The notes below the pieces were generated by a model. It saw only the letters and a program-made list of their open reading frames with translations. It searched no databases and was not told the origin of the DNA. Positions 42,630 through 52,761 of a DNA stretch of 64,000 nt are shown in pieces. The translations under genes and the position numbers were made by a program. This stretch comes from Streptomyces geranii. GTDB taxonomy: Bacteria; Actinomycetota; Actinomycetes; Streptomycetales; Streptomycetaceae. Positions within the stretch are counted from its first letter, which is position 1. Each line of letters starts with the position of its first letter. Location of the stretch: assembly GCF_002954775.1 (NCBI RefSeq), contig NZ_PJME01000003.1:310001-374000 (forward strand), given 5' to 3'.

Positions 42630-43460
42630 GTGCGCAAGATCGTGCGCCGCCACCTGGGCAAGGTGGTGGCGGGTACGGGGATCGCGGTGGCCGGTACGGC
42701 CGTCATGATCGCGGTGACGCTGCCGGGACCGGCGGGGGCCGACGAATCGGGAGGTACGGGGAGCGCGGGGAACTCGGGCAGTCCGACGAGCACGGGCGGG
42801 AGCGCGGACCAGTCCGGGCAGCAGGCCGCCGTGCCGCCCGGCGTCGTCGAACAGGTGCCCGCCGAGGGCGCGAAGGGCACCGGCCGCGACCCGCTGACCG
42901 ACGGCGAGATGGCGAAGGTCGAGCGGATCGTCCTCAACCGCCAGCTGCTCGACTCCAGTGAGAACGTCGAGGGGGAGCGCGGCCCGCAGCGGATCGGCGT
43001 CGACCTCGCCGACCCCGAGGCCTCCGAGGTGGACAACGCGAACGCGCCCCGGCGCGCGGACGTGTCGTACTACGACTACAAGGACGACACCCTGGTCACC
43101 AGGACCGTCAACCTCGACACCGGCAAGGTCGAGCGGACCGGCACCCAGCACGGCGTACAGCCGCCGCTGACCCGCGCCGAGACCGCCGAGGCGACCGTGC
43201 TGCTGATAGCCGACCCGCTGGGCGCGGGCCTGAAGGCCGACTACAAGGACGCGACCGGCAAGGACCTCACCGCACCGGACCAGCTGCTCGTCACCAGCAT
43301 GATCTACCGGGCCGTCCCGGGCGCCCAGCCCGCCGTGCTCGCCTCCTGCGGTGAGCACCGCTGCGTGCGGCTCTTCCCGAAGGTGAAGAACGGGCCCTGG
43401 ATAGACGCCCGTTCGCTGGTGATCGACCTGAGCACGCGCAAGGTCGCCGCGCTCGGCTGA
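42630..43460 (+). CDS. Secreted protein resembling the N2/N3 domains of copper amine oxidase
   Basis: 276 residues from GTG at 42630, with AAGGGG 5 bases upstream. The N-terminus (KIVRRHLGKVVAGTGIAV) looks like a signal peptide, possibly Tat, ending near GAGA-DES. After a Gly/Ser linker the domain has DPLTDGEMAKVERIVLN, VSYYDYKDDTLVTRTVNLD, GVQPPLTRAETAEATVLL and WIDARSLVIDLSTRKV. These follow the order and character of the small N-terminal domains of copper amine oxidases, where a GVQPPLT-like turn is typical. The downstream gene encodes a catalytic-type domain lacking them, so this is probably its partner. The homology is my reading, not a search. Confidence 0.75.
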   Translation: MRKIVRRHLGKVVAGTGIAVAGTAVMIAVTLPGPAGADESGGTGSAGNSGSPTSTGGSADQSGQQAAVPPGVVEQVPAEGAKGTGRDPLTDGEMAKVERIVLNRQLLDSSENVEGERGPQRIGVDLADPEASEVDNANAPRRADVSYYDYKDDTLVTRTVNLDTGKVERTGTQHGVQPPLTRAETAEATVLLIADPLGAGLKADYKDATGKDLTAPDQLLVTSMIYRAVPGAQPAVLASCGEHRCVRLFPKVKNGPWIDARSLVIDLSTRKVAALG

Positions 43461-43466
43461 CCGGGG

Positions 43467-43550
43467 GCTCTTCCTTCCCGCCCCCTTCCCTCTTTCCCTC
43501 TCCTGTCCCTCCCCTTACTCCTGTTACCCCTGTCTCGATCTCTCCTCCTT
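43467..43550 (+). other. Pyrimidine-rich tract between the two amine-oxidase-like genes
   Basis: About 84 bases contain only some eight purines on the + strand. The RNA would be C-rich and G-poor, as in rho-utilisation sites. It ends just before GGGAG (43551-43555), the ribosome-binding site of the next gene. Confidence 0.6.
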
Positions 43551-43565
43551 GGGAGTCTCTTCGTC

Positions 43566-44861
43566 ATGCGCGAAAAGTATGTGCTCGCCGGCCTCTCCGC
43601 GGTCGCCCTGGCCGCGGGCCTCACCACGGCGGCGGGCCCGGCCACCGCCCAGCCGAAGGCGGGCCCCGTGCCGCCCGCCCCGTGCAGTGCGCCGTACCGC
43701 ATCGAGCAGAAGCTCACCACCGGCACCACCTGGCGGATGTGCTGGCGCTACGAGAGCGAGGCCGGGCTCGTCCTGGAGAACGTCACGTACCAGCCCCCGG
43801 GCGAGTCCCCCATCAAGGTCCTCAACTCGGCGAAGCTCGGCCAGATACACGTCCCCTACGACGACGGCAAGGCCGAGTACAGCGACCTCACCCAGGCGGG
43901 CTTCGGCCAGGGCCTGATGAACCTCGCGCCCGGTGAGTGCCCCGGCGGCACCATCAAGACCGTCAAGGTCCCCGAGGCCTGGGACCCGGACAACGCGAAC
44001 GTCAAGGGCCTGTGCACCACGACCCGTTCACGCGGCCACGCCTACCGCATGCAGGGCGACACCGCGGGCAAGGTCTGGCAGACCCAGGGCAAGGACCTGC
44101 TCGTCTACACCGTCAACCAGGTCGGCTGGTACGAATACATCACCGAGTGGCGCTTCCAGGACGACGGCACCGTCAACATGAACGTCGGCGCCACCGGCAG
44201 CCTCGCCCCCGAGGACTACGACGCGGGCGACGGCCGCGGCTGGCCCATCGGCAAGGGCGCCAAGGCGTACGCCACCAGCCACAGCCACAACGTCTTCTGG
44301 CGGCTCGACTTCGGCCTCGACGGCTCCTCCAAGGGCAAGATCGAGCAGTACGACTCCGTGGTCAGCCCGCCCGCGAGCGGCGACGAGGGACCCACGAACA
44401 GAACGACCCGCACCCAGGTCAAGAAGGAACTCGCGGGCGACGCCAAGAACATGCGCTGGTGGCGGATCGTCAGCGCCACCGGCAAGAACAAGGACGGCCA
44501 CGCGCGCTCGTACGAGATCGTCCCCGGCGCCAGCACCAAGTACCCGGGCCGCGGCTTCACCAAGCACGACATCTACTTCACCGAGTACAACAAGTGCGAG
44601 CAGTTCGCCAGCGACAACCTGGGCAACTGCGGTGCGGGCGCGAAGAAATCGGTCGACGGATGGGTCAACGGACAGACCCTCACACACCCGTTGGTCTGGG
44701 TGAACGTCGGCTTCCACCACATAGCCCGGGACGAGGACCAGCAGCCCATGCCGGTCCACTGGCAGGGCTTCGCCATCGCCCCGCGCGATGTCACGGCTAT
44801 GAATCCGCTCACTCCCGCCGCCCTCGCCGATCAGAACGGGCATGTCGAAAGCGGTAGTTGA
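43566..44861 (+). CDS. Secreted copper amine oxidase-like catalytic domain, shortened and divergent
   Basis: 431 residues with a Sec-type signal peptide ending near ATA-QPK. It matches the C-terminal barrel of copper amine oxidases: QVGWYEYITEWRFQDDGTV, with Tyr189 at the place of the self-processed topaquinone Tyr; HSH at 239-241; and GFHHIARDEDQQPMPVHW, with His385 as third copper ligand. The usual Asn before the Tyr is Trp here. The segment matching the catalytic-base motif (FDAGEYG in the family) reads TQAGFG, so the Asp appears to be Gln110. Length is about two-thirds of normal because the N-terminal domains are absent; they seem to be encoded upstream. Activity is therefore uncertain. 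Confidence 0.8.
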   Translation: MREKYVLAGLSAVALAAGLTTAAGPATAQPKAGPVPPAPCSAPYRIEQKLTTGTTWRMCWRYESEAGLVLENVTYQPPGESPIKVLNSAKLGQIHVPYDDGKAEYSDLTQAGFGQGLMNLAPGECPGGTIKTVKVPEAWDPDNANVKGLCTTTRSRGHAYRMQGDTAGKVWQTQGKDLLVYTVNQVGWYEYITEWRFQDDGTVNMNVGATGSLAPEDYDAGDGRGWPIGKGAKAYATSHSHNVFWRLDFGLDGSSKGKIEQYDSVVSPPASGDEGPTNRTTRTQVKKELAGDAKNMRWWRIVSATGKNKDGHARSYEIVPGASTKYPGRGFTKHDIYFTEYNKCEQFASDNLGNCGAGAKKSVDGWVNGQTLTHPLVWVNVGFHHIARDEDQQPMPVHWQGFAIAPRDVTAMNPLTPAALADQNGHVESGS

Positions 44862-44976
44862 GAAACGACCCTGTCCATCCTGCTGCACCGCCGACCGCTC
44901 CCGGAGTACCCTTCCTTGATCGTTGGCCGGGACCGGCCACGGGGAGAAGCTCGGGGGAGCGGAAGGCGGTACACGG

Positions 44977-46215
44977 GTGGGCTCGGGAGGGCTGGAGCTG
45001 CCCCCTGGTGACGAGAGTCACGAGGGGAACTCCACAGAGGTCCCGCCCGGCGCGGTGTCCCTGGCACGGCCGATGGAGACGGGTTCCATTGGACCGGAAC
45101 TGGACTGGGACGCCGACGCCTGGCGCGAGGTGCGTACGCGCGCCCAGCGGGCCGGCCGGGCCTACATCTGGCTGAACCTGGTCGAACAGCGCCTGCGCGC
45201 GGTCGTGGCCGCCGTACTGCGCCCGATCTACGAACCTGTCCACGGCGACGAGTGGGTGGTCGCCGCCGCGGGCCCGGCCGGTCAGGAGTGGGTGCAGCGA
45301 GCGGTCGCGGTACGTGAAGTCAGCCGCCGCAAGGGCTACTTGCTCGACCCCGCCGACGACAACGTCCTGAGCTTCCTCACCTTGCCCCAGCTGCGCGAGC
45401 TGATGGTGCAGCACTGGCCGTGCTTCGAGCCGTACGTCGACGAGCGCCGCGACGTCGAACTCGCCCTGGACGAGCTGGAGGTGACGCGCAACGTCGTCTC
45501 CCGCAACCGCGCCCTGTCCGAGGCCGTCCTCAACCAGGCCGAACGCGCCTCCGGCAAGCTCCTGGAGACCCTCGGCGCGGGCGGCGACGTACCCTCCGCG
45601 CGCAGGCTGCCGGTGGACGCCGTAGAGGACCTGGTGGGCGACCGGTACGGCGACGTGGTCGCCGTGCACACCGACCGGGTGCGGCTGATGCGCCAGTTCC
45701 CGGCCGAGGACATCTTCGGCGGCGCGCGCCGCCTCGACGCCATCGGCATCGGCCTCAACCTGCTGGTGCAGAACTTCTCCGGACGGCGACTGGTGCGCCT
45801 CGCGGAGTCCGGCTGCCGGGTACGGCTGCTGTTCCTGAACCCCGCGTCCAGCGCGGTGAAGCGGCGCGAGCGGGAACTCGGCCTCAAGCGGGGCGAGTTG
45901 AGCCGAGCCGTGGAAATGAACATCCTGCACATGCGCCGGGTGCGGTCGAAGCTGCGCGACCCCGGCGCCTTCGAGATCCAGGTCTTCGACGAGACACCCC
46001 GCTTCACCGCCTACCTCGTCGACGGGGACGGCTCGGACGGGGTCGCGATCGTGCAGACCTATCTGCGGCGGACCCGGGGCATGGAGGCGCCGGTGCTGGT
46101 GCTGCGGGGCGGGAGCCGGACGGTCAAGTCGGGCGAGGTGGAGGAGATCGGTATCTTCCCGACGTATCGCGAGGAGTTCGAGGTGGCCTGGGCGGATTCG
46201 CGGCCGGTGTCCTGA
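44977..46215 (+). CDS. SAV2148-type HEPN domain protein
   Basis: 412 residues from GTG at 44977, with GGAAGG 10 bases upstream and the family's typical start GSGGLELPPGD. A helical N-terminal domain contains R82-x6-H89 (RPIYEPVH), the R-x4-6-H motif of HEPN ribonucleases. The middle is helical and charged (LDELEVTRNVVSRNRALSEA), and the C-terminal third (RRLVRLAESGCRVRLLFLNP, FEIQVFDETPRFTAYLVDG) resembles the phospholipase D-like or DUF fold seen in other signalling proteins; that last point is tentative. It is a conserved streptomycete protein with no settled function. A DEDDh exonuclease gene follows on the same strand. Confidence 0.82.
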   Translation: MGSGGLELPPGDESHEGNSTEVPPGAVSLARPMETGSIGPELDWDADAWREVRTRAQRAGRAYIWLNLVEQRLRAVVAAVLRPIYEPVHGDEWVVAAAGPAGQEWVQRAVAVREVSRRKGYLLDPADDNVLSFLTLPQLRELMVQHWPCFEPYVDERRDVELALDELEVTRNVVSRNRALSEAVLNQAERASGKLLETLGAGGDVPSARRLPVDAVEDLVGDRYGDVVAVHTDRVRLMRQFPAEDIFGGARRLDAIGIGLNLLVQNFSGRRLVRLAESGCRVRLLFLNPASSAVKRRERELGLKRGELSRAVEMNILHMRRVRSKLRDPGAFEIQVFDETPRFTAYLVDGDGSDGVAIVQTYLRRTRGMEAPVLVLRGGSRTVKSGEVEEIGIFPTYREEFEVAWADSRPVS

Positions 46216-49173: not shown

Positions 49174-52100
49174 TCAGTTGTCCGGTAGGAGGAAGCTGCG
49201 TCGCTCGTCCTCCGTCAGTCGGCGGAAGACTCGGGAGCGGGCCAGCGCGAGCAGGGTTTCGAGATCCGCCGTCGGGTCCCAGATCCTTGCCGTGCGGTCG
49301 CGGGACACCGTGATCAAGCGGGAGCCGTCGGGGTGCCAGGCCAGGGCGTTGACCTCGTCGTCGTGGACGCCGACGACCTTCGACTCCCGGCCGTCGACGG
49401 GGTTCCAGAGCCGGACCGTCCGGTCCCAGGACGCGGTGGCGAGGTGCCGGCCGTCGGGGGACCAGGCGACGCCCTGGACCCGTTCGCGGTGGCCGGTCAT
49501 GACGCGGAGGGCGGCGCCCGTGACCGAGTCCCAGACACGGACCGTGTTGTCCCGGGAGCCGGTGGCGAGGCGTGTCCCGTCGGGGGACCAGGCAATGCTC
49601 CAGGCGTAGTCCGTGTGCCCTTCGAGGGTGGTCACGCGCGTGCCCCGCTCGGGGTCCCAGACGCAGACCGCCCGGTCCGTCCACGACGTGGCGAGACGAC
49701 GGCCGTCGGGCGACCAGGTGGCGCCCCCGAGCCAGTGGCCGCCGCCCCGGAGTACCTTGAGTTCCCCGCCGTCCGAGGCGGCCCAGACGCGGGCGGTGCG
49801 GTCCCGTGACGTCGTGGCGATACGGGTGCCGTCCGGGGACCAGGAGATCGCGGTGATCTCGTCGTCGTGGCCGCGCAGTACGGAGAGTTGGGTGCGGTCG
49901 CTCGCGTTCCAGAGGGTGGCGACGCCGCCGAGCGAGACCGTGGCCAGCCGGGCGCCGTCGGGCGACCAGGCCACGCCGGACACCTCACCGGCGTGCCCCA
50001 GCTCCGCCTCCGCGGCGCCTGCCGCGAGGTCCCAGATCGTCGCCGTACCGTCCTGGGAAGCGGTGGCGACACGGGTGCCGTCCGGTGACCAGGAGACGCC
50101 GGTGACCGATGCGGTGTGGCCGCGCAGGGTGGCGCGCTGACCGCCGCGTGCGGTGGCGTCCCACACGGCCACCGTTCTGTCGCGGGAGACGGTGGCTATC
50201 CGGGAGCCGTGCCAGGCGATGGCGTTGACGCTGTCGGTGTGGCCGGACAGTGTGCGTTCCGCGCCGGTGTCCGGTTCCCAGATCCGGACTGTCCGGACCT
50301 CGTCCCCGACCGCCAGGTACCGGCCATCGGGGGACCAGGTGACACAGCTCAACTTGTCCCGGCACCGCAGCAGTTGGAGCTGGGTCAGGTCGATGGCGGA
50401 CCAGACGACGACGGTGCGGTCCTCCGACACCGACGCGAGCAGTGTCCCGTCGGGGGACCACGCGACGCCGGAGACAGCGGCCTGGTGTGCAGCCCTTTGG
50501 CCGGCCGCCCCACCGGCCTCCACGGACCAGACGCGCACCGTACCGTCGTCCGACGCACTGGCGACCCGCTCCCCGTCCGGCGACCACGCGAGGTCCCGCA
50601 CCTGTCGCTCGTGGCCGGTGAGCAAGGTCAGTTCCACGAGGGCCGTCGGGTCCCAGATCCGCACTGTGTGGTCACTGCTCGCCGTGGCGACCCGCCGGCC
50701 GTCCGGTGACCACGCGACGGCCTGGACGGCGTCGCCGTGCCCGGTGAGTGTGCCGAGCGCGGTACCCGTCGCGGCGTCCCAGACGGTGACCGTGCCGTCC
50801 CGGGCGCCGCTCGCCAGGTGGTTCCCGTCCGGCGACCAAGTCACCGTCTGTACGCGGCTGTTGGTGCCGTCGGGTGCGAGGACCGTTGGCCCGGTGCGGG
50901 GAGGGGGCCGCTCGTCGCCGTGCCAGATCCGGATCGTGCCGTCGTCGGAGGCCGTGGCCAGCCGGGTGCCGTCGGGCGACCAGGCCACCGCGTTGATGTC
51001 CTGCTCGTGGCCCCGGAACACCGCCCGCAGGTGGGAGACGTTGAGCGCGGTGTGCAGTGCCTGCTGGGCGGCCGAGGTCGGGGCCCACTCCTCAAGTGCG
51101 GCCACCGCACCCAGGAGCGCCAGCTCCGGATCACCGGCGGCGATCTCCGTCACCCGCGCGGCCACCGCGTCGGCGTGCTGTTCCGCGGACGCCCGGTCCA
51201 GCCGCGCCGAGCACTCCAGGAACTCGGCGAGGAGCGGGGCGCCGGTCGTCAAGTCGGCCGCGCCGTCCGCCCGTTGGAGTGCGGTGCGCAGGCGTTCGCC
51301 GTTCAGGAGGTACGCGTCCTTGCGACCCGAGTGGTCCCAGTCCCGTGCCCAGCGCTCCAGTTCAGTGCGGTGCCGCAACTCCTCCGCCCGGGCCTCGACG
51401 GTCTGCCGCAGCGGCGGCCACTGCCGGAACAGGGCCTCGTGAGCGACATCCAGTACGCCGCCGTCCGCGCCGACGAGCAGACGCCCCGTCACGAACGCCT
51501 CGGCCACCACGAGTTCCTGGTCCGTGAGTTCGGCGCGGTCGACCCGGCGGCGGGTCGGTTCGCCGCGCTCCATCGCCACGAACCTCAGCAGTGTGGCGAG
51601 GACGGGCGAGTCCGCGTCGGCCGCGCGCAGTTCGGCGCTGATGCGATCCGCCTGGTCGGACAGGGCCCCGGCGACGCCGCCCGAACGACGGTAGTCCTCC
51701 GCCGTGACCGTCCCGCCGGCGCCGACCCGCAGGTACAGCTCCTGGAGGGTGTACGCCAGCAGCGGCAGCGCGTCACCGCCTCCGGCGTCGTCCACCATCC
51801 GTGCTACGGCCCCGGGTCGGAACGTCAGGCCGACGCATTCGGCAGGCTTCTCGATCACCTCGAACAGCTCCGGGCGGCCGAGCGTCCCGACCAGCGCGGG
51901 CTGCCGTACCAGCTCGGCGTGCCCGGCTTCGAGCACGTCCGTCAGGAAGTCGGACCGCAGCCCGGCCACCACCCACAGCAAGGGGTCCGCCGCGAGCGAC
52001 GCCCTGAGCAGCGCGAGAAACGCGTCCCGCTCCCGAGCCCCGCTCAGTGTGAAGACCTCCTCAAGCTGATCGACGACCAGCAGCACCGGCACCGCACGCC

Positions 52101-52761
52101 CACCTGGCGCCGCACGTCCGCCGGATCCACGCCTACCCGCCGCCGCCCGCACCCGGTCCACACACCGCCGTACCCCCGAACCCCCCTCGCCCAGCTCCGC
52201 CCGAACCTGCTCGACGCTCATGCCGATCCCCGGCGCGGCGGCCAGACTCGCCGCCAGCCCGGCCAGCGGGTCGGTGCCCGGCGTGAAGGGCGGCAGGATC
52301 TCCCAACGCCCGCGCCGCAGCCGGAGGGTGGGCAGCAGACCGGCCCGCAGCAGCGACGACTTCCCGCTGCCCGAGGGGCCGATCACGGCGACGAACCGGT
52401 GCGCGCGGGCCGGTACGGCGGGATGCAGCCTGCCGACCAGGTCCCTGATCTCCCGGTCCCGGCCGAAGAACACCCCGGCGTCGGCCTCGGTGAACGACTC
52501 AAGCCCCGGATAAGGGGGTTGGGCCGCGTCCCAGCTCCGGCTGATCGCCACCGGCCGGTCCAGCAGGTGCAGCCAGATCTGTCCCGCGACCAGCAGCACG
52601 ATCGCCGTCACGACCAGCGGCAACGACCACTCCCGCAACACCCGCAGTAGCCAAGGCACATGATCCGTGCGGCTGGTGGCGTAGTTGGCCGCGATGCCCA
52701 GCAACGCCCCGACCAGCATGATCAGGACGTCCACGATCAGCTTCGCCAGACGACGATCCAC
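49174..52761 (-). CDS. Membrane-anchored STAND ATPase with 14 WD40 repeats
   Basis: 1195 residues. Two N-terminal membrane helices (about 9-27 and 46-66) precede an nSTAND1-type NTPase: PGLESFTEADAGVFFGRD, Walker A GPSGSGKSS (128-136), Walker B VLLVVDQLEEVF and a winged-helix/helical region to about 575. From about 580 to 1180 I count 14 WD40 repeats, nearly all with AWSPDG and a terminal WD or W, which would make two seven-bladed propellers. STAND proteins are ATP-driven switches that oligomerise when the sensor repeats bind a ligand. No fused effector enzyme is evident and no kinase or nuclease gene is adjacent. It ends 18 bases from the convergent LysR gene. Confidence 0.93.
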   Translation of the reverse strand: MDRRLAKLIVDVLIMLVGALLGIAANYATSRTDHVPWLLRVLREWSLPLVVTAIVLLVAGQIWLHLLDRPVAISRSWDAAQPPYPGLESFTEADAGVFFGRDREIRDLVGRLHPAVPARAHRFVAVIGPSGSGKSSLLRAGLLPTLRLRRGRWEILPPFTPGTDPLAGLAASLAAAPGIGMSVEQVRAELGEGGSGVRRCVDRVRAAAGRRGSGGRAAPGGRAVPVLLVVDQLEEVFTLSGARERDAFLALLRASLAADPLLWVVAGLRSDFLTDVLEAGHAELVRQPALVGTLGRPELFEVIEKPAECVGLTFRPGAVARMVDDAGGGDALPLLAYTLQELYLRVGAGGTVTAEDYRRSGGVAGALSDQADRISAELRAADADSPVLATLLRFVAMERGEPTRRRVDRAELTDQELVVAEAFVTGRLLVGADGGVLDVAHEALFRQWPPLRQTVEARAEELRHRTELERWARDWDHSGRKDAYLLNGERLRTALQRADGAADLTTGAPLLAEFLECSARLDRASAEQHADAVAARVTEIAAGDPELALLGAVAALEEWAPTSAAQQALHTALNVSHLRAVFRGHEQDINAVAWSPDGTRLATASDDGTIRIWHGDERPPPRTGPTVLAPDGTNSRVQTVTWSPDGNHLASGARDGTVTVWDAATGTALGTLTGHGDAVQAVAWSPDGRRVATASSDHTVRIWDPTALVELTLLTGHERQVRDLAWSPDGERVASASDDGTVRVWSVEAGGAAGQRAAHQAAVSGVAWSPDGTLLASVSEDRTVVVWSAIDLTQLQLLRCRDKLSCVTWSPDGRYLAVGDEVRTVRIWEPDTGAERTLSGHTDSVNAIAWHGSRIATVSRDRTVAVWDATARGGQRATLRGHTASVTGVSWSPDGTRVATASQDGTATIWDLAAGAAEAELGHAGEVSGVAWSPDGARLATVSLGGVATLWNASDRTQLSVLRGHDDEITAISWSPDGTRIATTSRDRTARVWAASDGGELKVLRGGGHWLGGATWSPDGRRLATSWTDRAVCVWDPERGTRVTTLEGHTDYAWSIAWSPDGTRLATGSRDNTVRVWDSVTGAALRVMTGHRERVQGVAWSPDGRHLATASWDRTVRLWNPVDGRESKVVGVHDDEVNALAWHPDGSRLITVSRDRTARIWDPTADLETLLALARSRVFRRLTEDERRSFLLPDN

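Follow-up and report, generated by a model that had tools for sequence, protein, structure and literature searches.

Can a copper amine oxidase (CAO) be built from two proteins that leave the cell separately, rather than from one chain? This question is raised by two adjacent genes in a stretch of 64,000 nucleotides of Streptomyces geranii DNA (assembly GCF_002954775.1, contig NZ_PJME01000003.1, positions 310,001 to 374,000; hereafter the window, in which position 1 is the first letter), whose products we call P1 and P2. All CAOs structurally characterised by 2012 were homodimers of 70-80 kDa chains, as stated in part of a review of that year (PMC3382800). We conclude that P1 and P2 probably form a secreted CAO of two chains, dependent on copper and topaquinone, which would assemble outside the cell. 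The gene pair is genuine and occurs widely in Streptomyces and many other actinobacteria, and the split CAO is a conserved two-chain form of a known enzyme. The data directly support the domain identities of the two proteins, the retention of active-site residues, the adjacency of the genes, the lack of any fused form among the loci examined and the separate clade that the split proteins form. Both reading frames, of 276 and 431 amino acids, had been put forward at these positions in a preliminary description of the DNA, and both are present in the list of open reading frames (ORFs). The features of the locus are as follows.

42630..43460, plus strand: P1, protein with N2 and N3 domains, 276 amino acids (GTG start, stop codon included)
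42630..42740, plus strand: predicted export signal of P1, residues 1-37, ending in AGA (hydrophobic stretch; cleavage site by eye)
42876..43163, plus strand: N2-like domain of P1, approximately residues 83-178 (profile alignment, predicted fold; borders by eye)
43164..43457, plus strand: N3-like domain of P1, approximately residues 179-276 (profile, predicted fold)
43461..43565, plus strand: intergenic stretch of 105 bases between the P1 and P2 genes
43566..44861, plus strand: P2, CAO catalytic domain, 431 amino acids (ATG start, stop codon included)
43566..43649, plus strand: predicted signal peptide of P2, residues 1-28, ending in ATA (hydrophobic stretch; site by eye)
43884..43886, plus strand: Asp107, predicted catalytic base (profile and multiple alignments; Thr109 in the single-sequence alignment with the Escherichia coli enzyme, ECAO)
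44127..44129, plus strand: Trp188, replacing the Asn before the cofactor Tyr (multiple alignment)
44130..44132, plus strand: Tyr189, predicted topaquinone precursor (alignments)
44280..44288, plus strand: His239 and His241, predicted copper ligands (alignments)
44718..44720, plus strand: His385, predicted third copper ligand (alignments)

The identity of P2 as a CAO catalytic domain is clear from its match to Pfam Cu_amine_oxid (PF01179), which scores 144.3 bits with a cut-off of 27. A profile built from 13 diverse P2 relatives recovers known CAO structures (PDB 3loy, E 9.5e-35; AGAO of Arthrobacter globiformis, E about 7e-29), and hhalign of the P2-clade profile with 18 single-chain CAOs gives 99.9%. 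Residue conservation was counted over 229 distinct split-clade sequences from 246 loci and proteins; 120 of these 246 are the closest matches to P2, and the sample leans to the window's near relatives. The putative cofactor residue Tyr189 and the predicted copper ligands His239, His241 and His385 lie where the preliminary description had put them and, like Tyr191, His384 and His398, are each found in 229/229, while Tyr98 is kept in 228/229. Position 190, Asp or Glu in the CAO consensus, is Glu in 223/229.

The catalytic base had been described as altered, with Gln110 in its place. This claim did not hold. Residue 110 varies across the 229 sequences, with Gly in 109, Asp in 39, Thr in 24, Ser in 21, Gln in 14, Glu in 13 and Ala in 6 as the seven commonest states, and Asp107 is kept in 228/229, the sole exception being a broken frame (L065), and is also invariant among the 13 diverse rows. 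Asp107 falls on the canonical base Asp when the clade profile is aligned with AGAO and 3loy, in the profile-profile comparison and in a multiple alignment with 22 single-chain CAOs; in AGAO the base is Asp298, as given in part of the 2012 review (PMC3382800). The variability of position 110 and the conservation of Asp107 rule out Gln110 as the base; with the base Asp present as Asp107, an altered base is not supported.

P1 had been assigned the character of the N2 and N3 domains, and a profile test set beforehand, together with the predicted fold, bears this out. Compared profile to profile with the canonical CAO N region, P1 aligns over residues 83-198 with a probability of 96.3% and E 1.5e-9. 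Positions 17-122 of the NCBIfam profile PRK11504 match P1 residues 87-196 at E 4.6e-5, a match far under the curated cut-off of 651 bits. P1 does not match the Pfam N2 and N3 domains, its only Pfam match being WHEP-TRS, under its cut-off, and a PDB sequence search with the P1 profile gave no match up to E 1. The AlphaFold model of P1 alone finds CAOs in the best 50 of 717 Foldseek matches (E up to 10). In this model the N2-like domain is predicted to consist of helices and four strands, and the predicted fold of residues 81-276 aligns with residues 19-207 of PDB 1ekm, so that an N2/N3 fold of P1 is predicted. Within the N3-like domain, Cys240, Arg244 and Cys245 are invariant in 69 aligned rows. 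The nearest named homologues of both P1 and P2 come from Streptomyces, and through the P1 family the label 'Tat pathway signal sequence domain protein', carried by many Streptomyces records, gains a likely function.

That the two proteins are secreted, as also claimed earlier, agrees with a hydrophobic N-terminal stretch on each, from which export of both chains is predicted; the P1 leader may be a cleaved signal or a membrane anchor. Leaders were scored by a 12-residue mean hydrophobicity of at least 1.5, with gene starts chosen by script. They are present on 45/45 N parts and 44/46 C parts of the family and class loci, and on 77/79 N parts and 79/80 C parts of the GTDB loci (both sets defined below). 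With the same script-chosen starts, the gap between the genes is -11 to 376 bases in 45 family and class pairs and -4 to 140 bases in 76/80 GTDB loci. A consensus scan of the P1-P2 intergenic stretch gave no promoter-like or terminator-like site.

Is the split a general property of these proteins? The preliminary description called for a survey of pairs against fused forms, and the outcome was nearly uniform. The family sample held 150 genomes including the window's own (G000), with thresholds of E < 1e-100 for the C part and E < 1e-50 for the N part; the C part was found in 29, the N part in 30, both in 29 and neither in 120, and three short weak C-part matches (G104, G142 and G124; E 2e-7 to 9e-4) were not counted as members. 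In the class sample of 296 genomes, where the C part was counted above 200 bits, 17 genomes outside Streptomycetaceae carry it. Together these samples gave 46 split-clade loci, the window's among them, and 45 of the 46 have the N part immediately upstream, as an ORF of its own on the same strand. The same holds in 80/80 loci from a scan of GTDB genomes, which found 479 relatives and of which the best 80 (L050-L129) were examined; the two locus sets overlap, with some genomes in both. Not one fused ORF with N and C parts was found among the 46 family and class loci and the 80 GTDB loci. Hosts of the GTDB pairs are Motilibacter, Micromonosporaceae, Actinomadura, Streptomycetaceae, Microbacterium, Agromyces, Nocardioides, Jiangella and Solirubrobacter, the last belonging to the class Thermoleophilia. 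Among 396 genomes searched for the N part across the phylum, 6 yielded it at full length, each of them from the window's genus, and other genomes gave weak matches; this was a sparse draw with few candidates scored, and the GTDB loci do show the pair in other families.

The split proteins also form a lineage of their own. In an unrooted tree that compares the catalytic domains of 40 split and 22 single-chain proteins, the branch separating the split clade from the single-chain CAOs has 100/100 support. The tree contains long rows (L046, CAN_L001, CAN_L143 and L045), and the grouping of L046 with L045 and L047 may be false. Over 110 pairs the correlation between N-part and C-part distances is 0.95, as expected of linked inheritance. 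That an ancestral single gene was broken in two is the simplest reading, though not proof, because the tree is unrooted. The window's genome encodes, in addition, a second CAO frame of the normal type (G000:C4).

Compared with the single-chain enzymes AGAO, ECAO and HPAO (Hansenula), P1 and P2 together keep the same N2, N3 and catalytic order, and P2 shares their copper His, cofactor Tyr, base Asp, Tyr98 and Cys pair (Cys125/Cys150). The split form differs in having two chains and two predicted export signals instead of one, and its linker between N3 and the catalytic domain is, by eye, mostly gone. Thr-X-X-Asn before the cofactor Tyr has become Lys/Gln/Arg-X-X-Trp in most split members. P2 has extra Cys40 and Cys59 (228/229 each) and extra His384 and His398 (229/229), although His384 also occurs in 9/22 single-chain CAOs, and P1 has the invariant Cys240 and Cys245 (69 rows). 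By profile and predicted fold, the domains D2 and D3 of the CAO definition are present ahead of the catalytic domain but on the separate P1, and wherever both parts are present among the loci examined they are two ORFs, unlike the one-chain form of about 70-80 kDa. Methylamine dehydrogenase and quinohemoprotein amine dehydrogenase are, like the proposed P1-P2 enzyme, exported multi-subunit amine oxidisers with a protein-derived quinone; they differ from CAOs in having other folds, other quinones and no copper. No description of a split or two-subunit CAO was found by title or abstract start in the open-licence PubMed Central literature, and a 2025 CAO tree paper (PMC12058724) has no mention of Streptomyces or 'Actinobacteri'.

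How would such an enzyme work? An interface between P1 and P2, the other test set beforehand, was approached through a stand-in: modelled joined in one chain, the two are predicted to pack like a whole CAO, which shows fit and not binding. The two chains would be exported separately and then meet outside the cell to form one amine oxidase. D3 forms part of the amine channel in single-chain CAOs, and P1 would supply this part here. Two P1-P2 units would pair into a heterotetramer. Tyr189 would be converted to topaquinone with copper on His239, His241 and His385, Asp107 would take the proton from the substrate imine, and the products would be aldehyde, ammonia and hydrogen peroxide. With the chains split, P1 and P2 would meet, and the enzyme perhaps become active, outside the membrane. 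A natural two-chain CAO lets the role of N2/N3 be asked directly, by omitting the small chain, and a natural Trp by the cofactor Tyr tests the role of Asn381, so far probed by mutation in AGAO according to part of one report (PMC9491219).

The neighbourhood of the pair offers a further clue outside Streptomycetaceae. There, a DUF305 gene lies directly downstream on the same strand in 42/47 GTDB loci: Micromonosporaceae 26/26, Microbacteriaceae 13/13, Motilibacter 1/1, Actinomadura 1/1, Jiangella 1/2 (the other contig ends after 51 bases), Nocardioides 0/1 and Solirubrobacter 0/3. In GTDB loci lacking a family label the count is 0/2. These counts use a profile built from the same loci, and Pfam DUF305 was matched in 5/5 that were checked. 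The distance from the C-part stop to the DUF305 match is 16-158 bases in 41 loci and 404 in one, and the DUF305 protein is apparently exported (by eye). In a second sample of 15 genomes outside Streptomycetaceae, some shared with the GTDB set, DUF305 adjoins the C gene in eight (G224, G210, G412, G368, G283, G326, G358 and G403). The adjacency is not chance, because a genome holds only 0 to 7 DUF305 genes (18 such genomes). CopM of Synechocystis, a protein of the same DUF305 family as the downstream neighbour (five tested), binds copper, as stated in part of its report (PMC4335983). Here the DUF305 protein is a neighbour and not a part of the oxidase, and in several families outside Streptomycetaceae it would deliver the copper. 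No report of a CAO together with DUF305 was found in the open-licence PubMed Central literature, and DUF305 proteins gain a possible context from this adjacency. An amino-acid-family permease is near the pair in 20/47 of the GTDB loci outside Streptomycetaceae, and an IclR regulator likewise in 20/47; Pfam confirmation covers two permeases and one regulator, and the permease of L060, which lies on the other side, may be unrelated.

Several observations weigh against an active oxidase of two chains, and its assembly and activity are themselves inferred from sequence and models. The Trp next to the cofactor Tyr gives most cause for doubt. Replacement of the preceding Asn by Trp, noticed in the preliminary description, is true of P2 and of 221/229 split-clade sequences (Asn in 6, Tyr in 2), and Trp188 is the real active-site oddity of the clade. 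At the position four before the Tyr, where the CAO consensus has Thr, the 229 sequences carry Lys (110), Gln (91), Arg (20), Ala (7) or Ser (1). In AGAO, Asn381Ala still made topaquinone, 180-fold more slowly, and kcat was 160-fold lower, according to part of the report (PMC9491219); given this cost, Trp188 points to altered cofactor handling or loss of activity. Near the Streptomycetaceae pair neither DUF305 nor a permease was found (0/31 GTDB loci), which leaves its surroundings without a pointer to amines or copper, and DUF305 is not adjacent in 7/15 genomes of the second sample (G192, G294, G290, G347, G202, G386 and G318). A single-sequence alignment with ECAO, whose base we take to be Asp383, puts Thr109 and not Asp107 at the base position. 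One locus, L046, has a lipoprotein-like C part (by eye) without an N gene, the genome's best N match being E 0.57, and one genome, G141 (contamination 7%), has an N part with no C part nearby. Finally, both the tether and what AlphaFold knows of CAOs bias the joined-chain model towards contact.

Could the pair then be something other than a two-chain oxidase? A copper-binding pseudoenzyme would have kept the CAO fold and copper site, lost amine oxidation, and would store, buffer or sense extracellular copper. Such a role would suit the Asn-to-Trp change in 221/229 at a position where Ala lowers AGAO turnover 160-fold (part of PMC9491219), the DUF305 copper-protein neighbour, and the Streptomycetaceae pair without amine-related neighbours. 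By sequence, the proteins may be active oxidases or only copper binders. But Asp107, which serves catalysis and not copper binding, is kept in 228/229, alongside the cofactor Tyr in 229/229 and Tyr98 in 228/229; amino-acid permease and IclR genes stand beside 20/47 GTDB loci outside Streptomycetaceae, and six members retain the usual Asn. We consider the pseudoenzyme rather unlikely. Alternatively, P2 might work alone, with P1 a separate helper, for example in folding or copper loading, that releases afterwards. The C gene of L046, in a genome where no N gene was found, would agree with this, as would a possible membrane anchor on P1, since the hydrophobic stretch starts up to approximately 40 residues in for some relatives. 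The predicted two-domain fold of P1 is nevertheless the one seen packed against the catalytic domain in solved CAO structures, and the near-strict co-occurrence of N and C parts also makes a transient helper improbable.

The split itself could be an artefact, a single CAO gene divided by frameshift, sequencing error or a wrong gene call, and such breaks do occur, as in the same linker of the canonical CAO of L149. However, the pair is kept in 45/46 and 80/80 loci across many genera, nearly all N parts (45/45 and 77/79) and C parts (44/46 and 79/80) have hydrophobic leaders, and the clade is separate from the single-chain CAOs. On the conservation of the pair and the separate clade we reject an artefact, to which we give next to no credence. 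Our preferred reading is the secreted CAO of two chains. A bolder form of it is a secreted quinone oxidase that strictly needs both subunits: P1 would complete the channel and activate the enzyme only outside the cell, Trp-Tyr would replace the topaquinone-steering Asn, and a dedicated DUF305 protein would load the copper; we offer this tentatively, as a possibility that we doubt.

The active-site motif shows some variation within the clade. Asn before the cofactor Tyr is retained in Solirubrobacter (L098, L106 and L112) and in Actinoplanes copies (L101, L110 and L119), and these six form one group on the tree. A lysine tyrosylquinone cofactor, suggested by Lys four residues before the Tyr in 110/229, was dropped because that position is Gln in 91/229, the window's P2 included. 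Some catalytic parts (L037, L039, L045, L047, L084, L098 and L110) have C-terminal additions of approximately 100-250 residues. Those of L037, L047, L098 and L110 match the Ig-like PF16640, with only L037 and L110 above its cut-off; that of L084 matches an LPXTG anchor weakly, under its cut-off, and those of L039 and L045 matched no named domain. Ig-like or LPXTG-type ends on some split CAOs would fit life at the cell surface.

Individual loci also vary. Two different copies of the pair are present in each of Actinoplanes regularis (L063/L119), A. cyaneus (L069/L110) and Streptomyces humidus (L079/L129). In L046 and L180 the catalytic part resembles a lipoprotein and the genome yielded no N gene; L179:2048-3331 is an N part that no catalytic part adjoins, from a genome flagged at 7% contamination. 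In one genus (G049, G081, G108 and G129), ORFs of 224-327 residues weakly match the middle of the N profile (E 6e-8 to 7e-7) and are possibly lone N2-like domains. At L149:122-2577, a CAO of the normal type lies in two frames that cover profile positions 9-204 and 204-641, the break falling in the linker that joins N3 to the catalytic domain; no export signal is visible by eye, and sequencing error, decay or an independent split could account for it.

In Streptomyces the pair adjoins a divergent glycogen-debranching-like gene and a treY-like gene (both named by eye). Directly downstream of P2 in the window, at 44923-46215, is a SAV2148-like HEPN protein with DUF5919, found in 10/38 loci compared. 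Further along, at 49174-52761 on the minus strand, an ORF of 1195 residues has a P-loop-like start and many WD40-like repeats (by eye).
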